DNA of 64,000 nucleotides from Lentisphaeria bacterium (GTDB lineage Bacteria; Verrucomicrobiota; Lentisphaeria; Victivallales; Victivallaceae): positions 1 to 64,000 of the forward strand of contig JAFSTC010000047.1 of NCBI GenBank assembly GCA_017450705.1, written 5' to 3'. Position 1 is the first letter of the stretch. Each line of letters starts with the position of its first letter. Position numbers and translations under genes: made by a program. This document shows, piece by piece, positions 19,969-62,753 of this stretch. The notes under the pieces are model-generated. The model made no database searches, was not told the origin of the DNA, and saw only the letters and a list, made by a program, of their open reading frames with translations.

Positions 19969-19988
19969 TTTGTCCCGCGGCCTTTGCA

Positions 19989-20024
19989 GTATTCATAGTA
20001 TTCCCAGTATTCGTAGTATTCATA
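19989..20024 (+). repeat. Four tandem 9-bp units GTATTCNNA
   Basis: GTATTCATA, GTATTCCCA, GTATTCGTA and GTATTCATA follow each other without gaps. This is an A/T-rich island in very GC-rich surroundings, 45 bp before the prs promoter. Confidence 0.85.
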
Positions 20025-20068
20025 GTCCCCTGTTATCCGCCCGCGGGTGCCGCCCGCCCGCCCCGGCA

Positions 20069-36452: not shown

Positions 36453-36586
36453 GCGTCGGGGGCGCGAAAGTGCTGAAGGTGCGAAGCGTCGGAGATGCGG
36501 GAGCATCGGGGGCGCGAAAGTGCTGAAGGTGCGTGAGCGTCGGAGATGCGGGAGCATCGGGGCGCGAAAGTGCCGAAGGTGCGAAC
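36453..36586. repeat. 51-bp tandem repeat (about 2.6 units) with internal hairpins
   Basis: Units run 36486-36536 and 36537-36586 (50 bp here because one G is missing), preceded by a partial unit 36453-36485. Each full unit contains GATGCGGGAGCATC, a 5-bp hairpin, and GCGCGAAAGTGCTGAAGGTGCG. A degenerate GCG-rich continuation runs to about 36661. Both strands have open frames across it, but with pure repeat composition. Confidence 0.85.
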
Positions 36587-37057
36587 GGGCTGAAGAGGCG
36601 GGAGCGCTGCAAGGCGCGGGAGCCTCGAAAAGCGCGAGAGCGTCCAAGAGCGTGAAAGCGCCGGGCAGGGGAGAACCCCCTCCGCGATGACTGCTTCCCG
36701 GCAGTTTCCGGTCGCGAGGACCGTGTTGTTCGATATGTGTGTTTAGTGTGTTCGTCAAAACAAGAAAGGTGATGTCCGAATCAGTGTTTCGACACCGCGG
36801 ATGAGTCCTTCGATCATCGCGGAACTCCCGCAAACAGCGGGGCCGCGGCGAAAGAACGGCGATTCCGGTCCGGGGCGGAGGGAAGTGCCGCCCGCCGGGT
36901 GCGAAATCGGCAGCGGAAAAGCGTGCGAACTTCTCCGCTCCCCGGATTCCGGCAGGACAAGCGGTAGGGAAGTGAGATCCACGGATGACAAAACGGACGT
37001 CGGGCGGTCGATCCCTAAAAAAGACCGGCCGCCGCAAAGGACAATGGGGAACCAATC

Positions 37058-59228: not shown

Positions 59229-60569
59229 ATGAAAAAAAATGAAACTTGCGGGGAGAAGCGCTTTTTTCTGGTTTCCCTGGGGTGCCCGAAAAATCTGGTG
59301 GATTCCGAGATCATCTCGGGAAATCTCCTCAGTTCCGGCTGGACGCTGACCGCGGATCCCGAGGACGCGTCGCTTTTCGTCATCAACACCTGCGCCTTCA
59401 TCCCCTCCGCCCGGCAGGAGGCCGCGGAGGAGATCGCTTCGGCCGCGGCGTGGAAGGAGGCGGCTCCCGGACGCCGGATCATGGTCTCGGGGTGTCTCAC
59501 CCGTTACGATTCCCGCGTCCGCGAGGAATACCCCTGCGTGGACTTCTGGACCGGTCCCGGCGACGTGGCCCGGGTCGCCGAGATCATCGGCGGCGCGTCG
59601 CCCGCTCCGGAATGCGCCTACTGTCACGACGAAAAAACGCCGATGCTCCAGCTGACGCTGCCCCATGTGGCCTACCTCAAAATAGCCGACGGCTGCGGCA
59701 ACGGCTGCGCCTACTGCATCATCCCGCGTCTGCGGGGCGCTCTGCGGAGCCGTCCGGCAAAATCCGTGCTGAACGAGGCGCGCACTCTGGTCGCCAACGG
59801 CGTCAGGGAGATCGTTCTCGTGGCGCAGGACACCACCGTCTACGGTGCCGACCGTCCCGGATCGGGGGAGACGCTGGCCGGGCTCCTCGCACAGATGGAC
59901 CGCCTCGACGGCGATTTCCGGGTCCGTCTGCTCTACACGCATCCGGCGCACTACACGGAGGAGCTCATCGGCGCATTGAGTTCCTGCGAAAAAGTCTACC
60001 CCTATCTCGACATCCCGCTGCAGCACATTTCGGACCGGATCCTTTCGGCCATGAACCGGCACATCACCTCCGGGGAGATCAGAGCGCTGCTGAAAAAACT
60101 CCGGGCGCGGATCCCCGGCCTTGTTTTGCGGACCACGTTCATCACGGGGCTTCCCGGCGAGACGGAGGAGGAGTTCCGGGAGCTGGAGGATTTCGTCCGG
60201 GAGCAGAAGTTCGAACGCATGGGCGTCTTCCCCTACGCCGCCGAGCCCGGGACCCGGGCGGCGGCCATGCCCGATCAGGTCCCTGCCGCCGTGGCGGAGG
60301 CCCGGGCGCAAAAGCTCATGAAAGCCCAGAACGCCCGGATGAAGCGCCTCTGCGGCCGTCTGGCCGGGCAGGAGATGCGCGTTTTGGTCGATCATGTCGA
60401 GGACGGCGTCGCCGTGGCCCGGGGGGTCTGGGATGCGCCGGACATCGACAATGCGATATTGATCCCGCATGTCGGGAAGAGTTCCGTCGGCAGCTGGCAA
60501 CTGGTCCGCGTCGTCGGAAGGCAGGGGTGCGATCTGGTGGCCGAAAGAATACGGAGGGGCGCAAAATGA
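59229..60569 (+). CDS. rimO: Ribosomal protein uS12 methylthiotransferase RimO
   Basis: 446 residues. Radical-SAM enzyme that adds a methylthio group to an Asp of uS12. The N-terminal cluster uses Cys19, Cys55 and Cys89 (LGCPKNLVDSE, NTCAFI, VSGCL). The radical-SAM site is CGNGCAYC with Cys156, Cys160 and Cys163. The C-terminal TRAM domain starts near 375 (EMRVLVDHVEDGVAVAR). The gap between the first two domains is short. Its stop overlaps the pgsA start as ATGA. Confidence 0.95.
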   Translation: MKKNETCGEKRFFLVSLGCPKNLVDSEIISGNLLSSGWTLTADPEDASLFVINTCAFIPSARQEAAEEIASAAAWKEAAPGRRIMVSGCLTRYDSRVREEYPCVDFWTGPGDVARVAEIIGGASPAPECAYCHDEKTPMLQLTLPHVAYLKIADGCGNGCAYCIIPRLRGALRSRPAKSVLNEARTLVANGVREIVLVAQDTTVYGADRPGSGETLAGLLAQMDRLDGDFRVRLLYTHPAHYTEELIGALSSCEKVYPYLDIPLQHISDRILSAMNRHITSGEIRALLKKLRARIPGLVLRTTFITGLPGETEEEFRELEDFVREQKFERMGVFPYAAEPGTRAAAMPDQVPAAVAEARAQKLMKAQNARMKRLCGRLAGQEMRVLVDHVEDGVAVARGVWDAPDIDNAILIPHVGKSSVGSWQLVRVVGRQGCDLVAERIRRGAK

Positions 60570-61180
60570 ACATGCGGAATATTCCCAATATCCTCACGGT
60601 GAGCCGCATAGCCGCGGTTCTGGTTTTCGTTGTCCTGGCGACGTTCGCCGAAAGGACGTTCATGTCGGACGAGGCGGTGCGCCTGGTGCGTCTCGTCGCG
60701 TACATTCTGGCGATCCTCGCCGGGGTGACGGATCTCCTCGACGGCTACATCGCCCGGCGGTACAATTTCGTCAGCGACTTCGGCGCGCTGATGGATCCCC
60801 TCGCGGACAAAATTTTCGTGACGGGGACCATGCTCATGGCGGTGGAGTACGGCCTCATGCCGGCGTGGATCGCCGTCGCGGTCCTCTGCCGCGAGTTCAT
60901 GGTGACGGGCCTGCGGACCCTCGCCGCGAAAAAACAGGTCGTGATCTCCGCGGACCGCTGGGGTAAGCTCAAAACCGCTCTGCAGATGCTCATGCTGATC
61001 ATTGCCGGCGCGGCCTGGGTGATCGACGGCGGCGCGCAGTACATGCACACGGCCAAATGGTTCGGCATCCGGCTCTGGTATCTGTGGATCGTCTATCTCT
61101 CCGGGATCGTCCTCGTGACGATCGGTTCCGGCGCGGGATATTTTTTCAAGTACCGGAAACTTTACCTGCCGGAAAAGTGA
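60566..61180 (+). CDS. pgsA: CDP-diacylglycerol-glycerol-3-phosphate phosphatidyltransferase
   Basis: 204 residues from ATG 60566, with GGAGG nine bases upstream. Integral membrane enzyme that makes phosphatidylglycerol phosphate. The CDP-alcohol motif DLLDGYIARRYNFVSDFGALMDPLADK (split here as DLLDGYIARR and FGALMDPLADK) has the metal-binding aspartates at 56, 59, 77 and 81. NIPNILTVSRI is the family start. rimO-pgsA is a known gene order. Confidence 0.95.
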   Translation: MNMRNIPNILTVSRIAAVLVFVVLATFAERTFMSDEAVRLVRLVAYILAILAGVTDLLDGYIARRYNFVSDFGALMDPLADKIFVTGTMLMAVEYGLMPAWIAVAVLCREFMVTGLRTLAAKKQVVISADRWGKLKTALQMLMLIIAGAAWVIDGGAQYMHTAKWFGIRLWYLWIVYLSGIVLVTIGSGAGYFFKYRKLYLPEK

Positions 61181-61190
61181 CCCCGGTACG

Positions 61191-61220
61191 GACGGACACG
61201 GACGGACACGGACGGACACG
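61191..61220 (+). repeat. Three exact tandem copies of a 10-bp unit GACGGACACG (left side)
   Basis: Units at 61191, 61201 and 61211, directly after pgsA and ahead of the four-helix-bundle gene. The same unit occurs on the right side at 61861-61870, and inverted versions lie at 61884-61924. Confidence 0.95.
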
Positions 61221-61254
61221 CGGATGGTCGTGTGGTCCGTTTTGAGGTGATGTG

Positions 61255-61845
61255 ATGCCGGAGATCCTTTTGCCGCACGGCGGTTTCGAAGAGTTGAAGA
61301 GTTTTCGCCTGGCGCGGCTGACTTTCGATATCACGGCGCGCTTTGTCGAAATGTACGTCGACGCCGGATCGCGCACACGGGACCAGATGGTTCAGGCGGC
61401 GCGGAGCGGCGTGCAAAACATTGCGGAGGGGTCCGAAGCGGCGGCGACGAGCCGCAGGACGGAATTGAAACTCACCAATGTCGCGCGAGCTTCGCTTGTC
61501 GAACTGCAGTTGGACTATCAGGATTTTTTGCGGCAGCACGAATGGCCGGAATGGAGTAAGGATCACCCGGCGCTGGTCGACTTCAAACGGCGGCGGATTT
61601 CCGACATGACGGCTTTTCGGGCGTGGGTGCGGGACACCCGTGAAACCATGCCGCGGACGCACCGGGCGGCGATTGTCGCCAACGGGGCGTTGTCTTTGCT
61701 GAATTTGACGGTTTTTCTGCTGATGAAACAGCTGGCGGCCCAAGCCGCCGCCTTCGAACGGGAGGGCGGTTTTACCGAACGGCTTTACCGGGTACGGCAA
61801 AAAAGCGCCGGGATGAAGACGGATCACACGGATAAACACGGATAA
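61255..61845 (+). CDS. Four-helix-bundle protein (S23-like) with 'suffix' domain
   Basis: 196 residues from ATG 61255, with GAGGTGA five bases upstream. Residues about 20-90 resemble the bacterial four-helix-bundle family that includes the S23 proteins encoded in rRNA intervening sequences (RLARLTFDITARFVEMY, ARSGVQNIAEGSEAAATSRR). The following LTNVARASLVELQLDYQDFLRQHEW resembles the 'four helix bundle suffix' domain. Function is unknown. The last residues (DHTDKHG) and the stop are encoded by the right-hand 10-bp repeat, so the gene and repeats form one unit. Confidence 0.82.
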   Translation: MPEILLPHGGFEELKSFRLARLTFDITARFVEMYVDAGSRTRDQMVQAARSGVQNIAEGSEAAATSRRTELKLTNVARASLVELQLDYQDFLRQHEWPEWSKDHPALVDFKRRRISDMTAFRAWVRDTRETMPRTHRAAIVANGALSLLNLTVFLLMKQLAAQAAAFEREGGFTERLYRVRQKSAGMKTDHTDKHG

Positions 61846-61924
61846 ACACGGACAAACACCGACGGACACGCGGGGCGGGCGACCGTCCGTGTCGGTCTGT
61901 GTCAGTCCGTGTCAAGTCCGTGTC
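61831..61924. repeat. 10-bp repeat array, direct then inverted (right side)
   Basis: Direct units in 10-bp register: GATAAACACG twice (61831, 61841), GACAAACACC (61851) and GACGGACACG (61861). After a GC-rich spacer come inverted units CGTCCGTGTC (61884), GGTCTGTGTC (61894), AGTCCGTGTC (61904) and an 11-bp AAGTCCGTGTC (61914). The outer units are thus in inverted orientation to the left array. Confidence 0.9.
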
Positions 61925-61940
61925 CGACAGGAGGTGATGA

Positions 61941-62753
61941 ATGATCGATTACGGCTTGAAAGACCGCGTGGCTCTGATCACGGGGGCGAACAATCCGCGG
62001 GGGATCGGGGCGGCGGCGGCCCTGGCCTTCGCCCGCGAAGGAGCGAAGGTGGTCCTGGTCTACAAAAAAGTGCTCCGGCCCTTCGACAAAAGCAAAACCG
62101 GCGCAAACGGCGTCGACCGTTACTACGAAGCCAATGCCGGAAACGCCGATGTCGTCGCGGAGCGGCTTCGGAAGATCCATGCCGACTTCATCGTGCTGGA
62201 GAGCGATATCTCCGACGAGGCGGCCGTCGGGCGGATCTGGGCGGCCGTGGAGGAACGGTACGGAAAAGCCGACATCCTCGTCAACAACGCGGCCGCGGAC
62301 GACGAAAACGGCTTCGACACCATCGAAAAAATCACCACGGAAGTGATCGACGGCACCTTTGCGGTCAACGTCCGGGGCAGTCTCCTGATGATGCGGGAAT
62401 TCATCCGCCGCCGGGGCAGCGGCGGACGGGTCGTCAATATTTCCACCGACGCCGCGCAGATCTTTGCCGGCCAGATCGCCTACGGTTCGAGCAAGGCGGC
62501 TCTGGAGGCGCTGACCCGCAGCGTCGCCCTCGAGGCGGCGAAGTACGGTATAACGGTGAACTGCGTCGCGCCGGGCCCGACCCAGACGGGATGGATCGAC
62601 GCCGAGCTGGAGAAAGCCGTCGTGCCGCTGATCCCCCTGGGGGAACTGATCCGTCCGGAGGACATCGCCGAGACGATCCTGTTTTTGGCCAGCGCTCAGG
62701 CGCGGATGCTCACGGGCCAGGTCGTCAAGGTCTCCGGCGGACACGCGCTCTGA
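61941..62753 (+). CDS. Short-chain dehydrogenase/reductase (FabG-like)
   Basis: 270 residues. Rossmann fold with TGANNPRGIG at 14-23, NNA at 115-117, and the catalytic Ser168, Tyr181 and Lys185 (YGSSK). The insert after strand 2 (KKVLRPFDKSKTGANG) is longer than in FabG. C-terminal VKVSGGHAL is typical. An AGGAGGTG site precedes the start. The substrate is unknown; it may be a 3-oxoacyl or sugar alcohol. Convergent with the aldo/keto reductase. Confidence 0.9.
   Translation: MIDYGLKDRVALITGANNPRGIGAAAALAFAREGAKVVLVYKKVLRPFDKSKTGANGVDRYYEANAGNADVVAERLRKIHADFIVLESDISDEAAVGRIWAAVEERYGKADILVNNAAADDENGFDTIEKITTEVIDGTFAVNVRGSLLMMREFIRRRGSGGRVVNISTDAAQIFAGQIAYGSSKAALEALTRSVALEAAKYGITVNCVAPGPTQTGWIDAELEKAVVPLIPLGELIRPEDIAETILFLASAQARMLTGQVVKVSGGHAL

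Follow-up and report, generated by a model that had tools for sequence, protein, structure and literature searches.

RAYTs (TnpA-REP), the proteins associated with REP sequences and REPINs, belong to the HUH tyrosine transposases and act on hairpins formed by palindromes. Avd, which is related to the S23 family of four-helix proteins, is an accessory protein of diversity-generating retroelements (DGRs). Of the DGR reverse transcriptases, 62% co-occur with an Avd_like domain (PMC8934634). Within the S23 family, the 428-nt rRNA element of Coxiella carries GACAGAT heptamers in tandem immediately upstream of the S23p start, in a number that varies between strains, as well as terminal inverted repeats, and its S23 protein was reported as probably not made (PMC4990558); a Xanthomonas family member was reported to form a homopentameric ring (PMC4990558). 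Heptamer repeats have also been described in Beggiatoaceae, where the TAACTGA arrays, for which no protein was named, were proposed to regulate translation, their author suggesting in addition that the mobile element might be a protein that binds the repeats (PMC4679880). In the open-access literature, which our search covered, we found no paper that ties four-helix genes to dispersed tandem repeats.

Results

Direct and inverted arrays frame a four-helix gene between pgsA and an SDR gene

We analysed a 64,000-nucleotide stretch of DNA from a Lentisphaeria bacterium, hereafter the window, in which the first-pass annotation had seen a four-helix-bundle gene framed by 10-bp, partly inverted repeats. 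Searching for the core CACGGAC with at most one mismatch, we located all the units of this layout (Table 1), including three exact GACGGACACG units at 61191-61220, left of the gene, and four inverted units spaced by 10, 10 and 11 bp. The Tandem Repeats Finder scores of the left and right direct arrays (66 and 63, respectively) were not reached in any of 1000 dinucleotide-shuffled versions of the respective stretch, and a two-unit pattern matches eight times in the window, always in the four-helix block, versus 0.67 expected, ruling out chance or low complexity as the source of the arrays. As the annotation had also stated, the stop codon of the gene (TAA, 61843-61845) falls within the right direct array and in its register, and the block sits cleanly between its neighbours: the pgsA stop codon lies 5 bp upstream of the left array and the Shine-Dalgarno sequence of the SDR gene (AGGAGG, 61929-61934) directly 3' of the inverted array, so that neither neighbour is disrupted. 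An Rfam scan returned no rRNA match and only two irrelevant matches under threshold, and a known RNA family was therefore dropped as an identity for the block. Elsewhere in the window, positions 36456-36660 contain tandem repeats of a 50-bp unit, adjoined by an 18-bp array; they have no relation to the four-helix element.

Table 1. Position of the features discussed in the text, numbered along the window
Feature	Coordinates	Strand	Details
Gene-less GAATACT-type array, AGTATTCNN x4	19987..20026	-	unit identical to that of the sister four-helix gene on contig C30
pgsA, left neighbour	60569..61180	+	TIGR00560, 137.8 bits (cut 109.1)
Left direct array	61186..61222	+	core units at 61187, 61197 and 61207, the first being TACGGAC; spans the three exact GACGGACACG units
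Shine-Dalgarno-like GAGGTG of the four-helix gene	61244..61249	+	read in the sequence
Four-helix-bundle gene with suffix domain, 196 aa	61255..61845	+	alternative start GTG at 61252
Right direct array, four units	61827..61863	+	units start at 61827, 61837, 61847 and 61857; encloses the stop codon of the gene
Right inverted array, four units	61885..61924	-	units (reverse complement of CACGGAC) start at 61885, 61895, 61905 and 61916
SDR-family oxidoreductase, right neighbour	61941..62753	+	Shine-Dalgarno AGGAGG at 61929-61934

The encoded protein is predicted to adopt the S23 four-helix fold

The window protein scores above the NCBIfam cut-offs of the four helix bundle suffix domain (TIGR04258, 61.9 bits, cut 40) and, just, of TIGR02436 (27.5 bits, cut 24), and under the gathering score of Pfam PF05635 (25.4 against 33.8 bits). 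Its AlphaFold2 model, built from an alignment of 58 sequences, has a pLDDT of 92.8, and the top three solved structures retrieved with it by Foldseek are chains of 2rld, from the S23 family (probability 0.99-1.0, target TM 0.51-0.62, but a modest E value of 0.04-0.14). This model thus predicts an S23 four-helix fold for the window protein; a sequence search of the PDB gave no match. The invariant residues of the family cluster around RT-DQMVQAARSG--NI-EGS.

We found no transposase match for the window protein in NCBIfam, Pfam or PHROGs, and no recombinase motif is known in it. A phage-family identity was dropped, given no PHROGs family for the window protein and no phage record containing a canonical relative, as was a defence-gene identity, for which PADLOC gives only a weak match (E 0.011). 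TIGR04256 (GxxExxY) has no match in the window's own genome.

Each four-helix gene of the genome has its own dispersed repeat

The window's genome encodes two further four-helix genes, three in all, whose repeats differ from that of the window gene, one being framed by GAATACTNN (9 bp) and the other by GATGAGA (7 bp). All three repeats recur away from their genes, at places with no four-helix gene: ACACGGACNN is found at several such sites, and the genome contains in all 30 triple-unit matches to GAATACTNN and 34 matches to GATGAGA, versus zero for the reversed-pattern controls. One gene-less array lies in the window itself (Table 1). The gene-less ACACGGAC arrays of this genome (L022-L026, L028) are mostly found next to a second dispersed repeat with a AAACTTCTTTTC...GAAAAGAAGTTTTCCCC hairpin.

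Repeat and protein co-vary across phyla

Of 60 related genomes, 42 contain TIGR02436 matches; across species genomes, our scan recovered at least 568 relatives spread over many phyla, and we kept 80 of them. Repeats beside other family members, which the first-pass annotation had left to be searched for, are present both within this genome and across phyla. Arrays occur at 103 of 154 four-helix genes, a figure that pools subfamilies and includes a same-genus subgroup entirely devoid of arrays (e.g. L044, L046-L050), versus 12 of 132 windows shifted within these loci (Fisher P = 5e-25) and 1 of 29 pgsA control loci; about one-third of the relatives display no array at the threshold used.

The units consist of a conserved core of 6-7 bp and a variable spacer of 2-3 nt. 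Four seed letters are identical between neighbouring units by construction, and agreement in the core reaches 0.72-0.93 at the two letters just before this seed, versus 0.27-0.44 over most of the spacer length. Four units is the commonest array length (43, 72 and 14 arrays of three, four and five units, respectively), and the usual layout is a direct array followed by an inverted one. Often, one array or both fall within the ORF itself, between helix 3 and the suffix, and in relatives they often overlap the start codon. The complementarity between direct and inverted spacers is at chance (0.270 versus 0.276 in the null), which argues against a selected perfect hairpin, whether of RNA or single-stranded DNA; arrays of recognition sites fit better.

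Suffix-type genes have units of 9-10 bp and canonical genes mostly of 7 bp. When mapped on a protein tree built without the linker columns, in which columns are few, many forks are unresolved and the branch of the window protein is long, the unit class requires 17 changes (38.4 in shuffles, with a minimum of 34 over 300) and the repeat period 4 (16.7 in shuffles), versus 29 for the host phylum (32.7 in shuffles), which is barely clustered. Unit sequence and length thus track the branch of the protein and not the host phylum. This co-variation demonstrates that the repeat travels with the protein, is by itself no proof of recognition, and could reflect the mere co-inheritance of linked DNA. Two genomes (G022 and G025) contain arrays of a class with no cognate gene found. 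The suggestion that the 10-bp period, being one helical turn, would let one protein face contact every unit does not survive this comparison, since relatives use periods of 7, 8 and 9 bp and the period follows the protein clade.

Relatives occur as discrete insertions at plasmid and other loci

On cyanobacterial and Bacteroidota plasmids, short arrays, mostly of 7 bp, are present on both sides of all 14 canonical genes (14/14), and in 10 of the 14 the two sides share an inverted word of 12 bases or more, versus 16 of 300 mispaired controls; in a Pseudanabaena plasmid element, the arrays are direct rather than inverted. Three of the plasmid loci have a counterpart empty in other plasmids, with a flank identity of 88-98%. 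At sites 1 and 3, the insertion starts and stops at the arrays and possible target duplications of 7-8 bp (GTAATNAA and GRTTCTA) were read by eye, site 2 being less clean. Between two copies at one site (L332 and L344), the arrays differ by whole units. At two plasmid insertion sites, other plasmids hold apparently decayed or different remnants (L349, L350), and several plasmid elements lie between operon mates, among them cas6/cas4 and cas10/cmr3 in CRISPR-Cas gene rows (L327, L335, L336).

TACGGA cassettes that are 87-96% identical over ~690 bp turn up in unrelated contexts, one genome having two of them. Behind a VOC/glyoxalase gene (G021, L072, contig C16), two TACGGA four-helix cassettes stand in a row with a third cassette, presumably RhuM-like from our reading of its translation. 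Between the cassettes at this position (L072, L288, L071) lie 40-bp copies of the VOC 3' end together with a shared 31-bp stretch, the four-helix cassette measuring 687 bp and the RhuM-like one 1112 bp; in two genus-mates (G004 and G022) the VOC site has no four-helix cassette. Because 40-bp duplications frame the cassette and the RhuM-like cassette shares its site, another recombination system may have placed it there. The VOC site is the clear insertion of the suffix branch, the clean empty sites on plasmids belonging to the 7-bp canonical branch. Gene-less array pairs are also dispersed with homologous interiors, some downstream of terminators or between genes; for instance, one genome (G016) has many places where a homologous interior is flanked by a pair of GAATACT arrays. 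In another genome (L276; G008, contig C47), a 1.4-kb segment with two ORFs lies between two inverted TACGGA arrays, one of the ORFs being weakly similar to phage replication-initiation proteins.

For the copy in the window, no empty site was found among 29 genus-mate pgsA loci, and none of the 29 has the SDR gene near pgsA, indicating that the pgsA-SDR junction itself is not conserved. The proposal of a mobile cassette thus holds for the class, from the near-identical cassettes in unrelated contexts and the empty sites of relatives, and lacks an empty site for the window copy.

Discussion

We consider it probable that the block at 61186-61926 represents a single copy of a minimal mobile element, with end arrays recognised by its only protein. 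Four-helix genes of this class are associated with arrays of fixed architecture that co-vary with the protein, they are found as discrete insertions at sites empty in relatives, and cognate arrays are dispersed away from them; that the class is real and mobile we state with good confidence, and it looks like a widespread and mostly overlooked kind of tiny mobile element across many phyla. Recognition of the repeat by the four-helix protein is plausible and would fit both the co-variation and the conservation of cores relative to spacers, whereas the notion that this protein drives the movement is put forward as a hypothesis. The element would comprise one protein, an S23/IVP-family four-helix bundle, and ends made of about four 6-7 bp cores at a fixed pitch, laid out direct and then inverted. 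The protein, whose relatives form pentameric rings, would bind the arrays at both ends and pair them, and the movement would be completed by host or other enzymes; we infer the binding, the end pairing and this role in movement. Gene-less arrays would be non-autonomous derivatives, as REP/REPIN sequences are of RAYT transposases. Several points speak against this reading: the missing empty site of the window copy, the 40-bp duplications at the VOC site, the third of relatives with no array at our threshold, the arrays of G022 and G025 with no cognate gene found, the lack of a known recombinase motif, and the Coxiella S23 protein reported as probably not made (PMC4990558).

The position of the arrays over start codons or within the ORF could also be read as autoregulation, the protein binding them as operators or RNA sites at its own start and at its linker or 3' end, with gene-less arrays forming a regulon or by-products and mobility being incidental. 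Such a role would agree with the regulation of translation proposed for the TAACTGA heptamers (PMC4679880), but we judge it unlikely: the ends of the element match the arrays at empty sites, gene-less pairs with homologous interiors are dispersed to places that include terminator-downstream and intergenic positions, and the direct/inverted pairing at both ends exceeds what an operator needs. Alternatively, the repeats might be independent, selfish or grown by slippage, and the four-helix genes passengers of other systems such as 3'-end cassette hot spots or homologous recombination between arrays. The VOC 3' end does behave as a hot spot for both four-helix and RhuM-like cassettes with their 40-bp duplications, and array copy number varies by whole units between two copies at one site; however, the class of repeat follows the protein clade across phyla, cores persist while spacers diverge, and arrays are rare in shifted windows and pgsA flanks, so that this scenario appears quite improbable to us.

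We give still less credit to an RNA-based copying, in which the protein, like Avd, would bind the transcript of the element and a reverse transcriptase acting in trans would copy it into new sites. The fold family shared with S23 proteins, the frequent company of Avd_like domains and DGR reverse transcriptases (62%; PMC8934634) and the shortness of the element speak for it, but the element encodes no reverse transcriptase, and the non-complementary direct and inverted spacers bear no sign of a selected RNA hairpin. Returning to the mobile element with protein-recognised ends, a broader generalisation, which we advance tentatively as a possibility, is that minimal elements of many phyla are moved by a four-helix protein reading about four cores per end, a new type of recombination factor with rRNA intervening sequences and cyanobacterial heptamer STRRs as special cases of such elements. 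No function is known for S23/four-helix proteins, and no source for the 7-10 bp short tandem repeats of bacteria; if the two belong to a single element, each question could be tested and many intergenic regions rich in repeats could be annotated.

Among known systems, the 23S rRNA intervening sequences of Coxiella and Leptospira contain an S23p ORF of the same protein family as the window gene, and the heptamers and terminal inverted repeats of Coxiella fit the canonical branch of the relatives studied here. These sequences lie in rRNA genes and are excised as RNA by RNase III, whereas the present elements occupy ordinary intergenic sites (that of the window, between pgsA and the SDR gene and with no rRNA match by Rfam, is not in a 23S rRNA gene), have units of 7-10 bp that follow the protein branch, and are accompanied by dispersed gene-less copies. 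Avd partners a reverse transcriptase in DGRs, while the window element contains no such locus. The cyanobacterial STRR heptamers and, from their published description, the TAACTGA repeats form direct heptamer arrays too; unlike in the TAACTGA account, heptamer arrays here frame four-helix genes on cyanobacterial plasmids, and we take these arrays to be the published STRR families. REP/REPIN sequences with their RAYT are likewise short dispersed repeats tied to one gene, with the same repeat flanking the gene and gene-less copies outnumbering it. Unlike a RAYT, the window protein is a predicted helical bundle with no transposase match, and its spacers do not pair; dispersed gene-less copies of the element's own repeat are common to the REP/RAYT system and to the window's genome.
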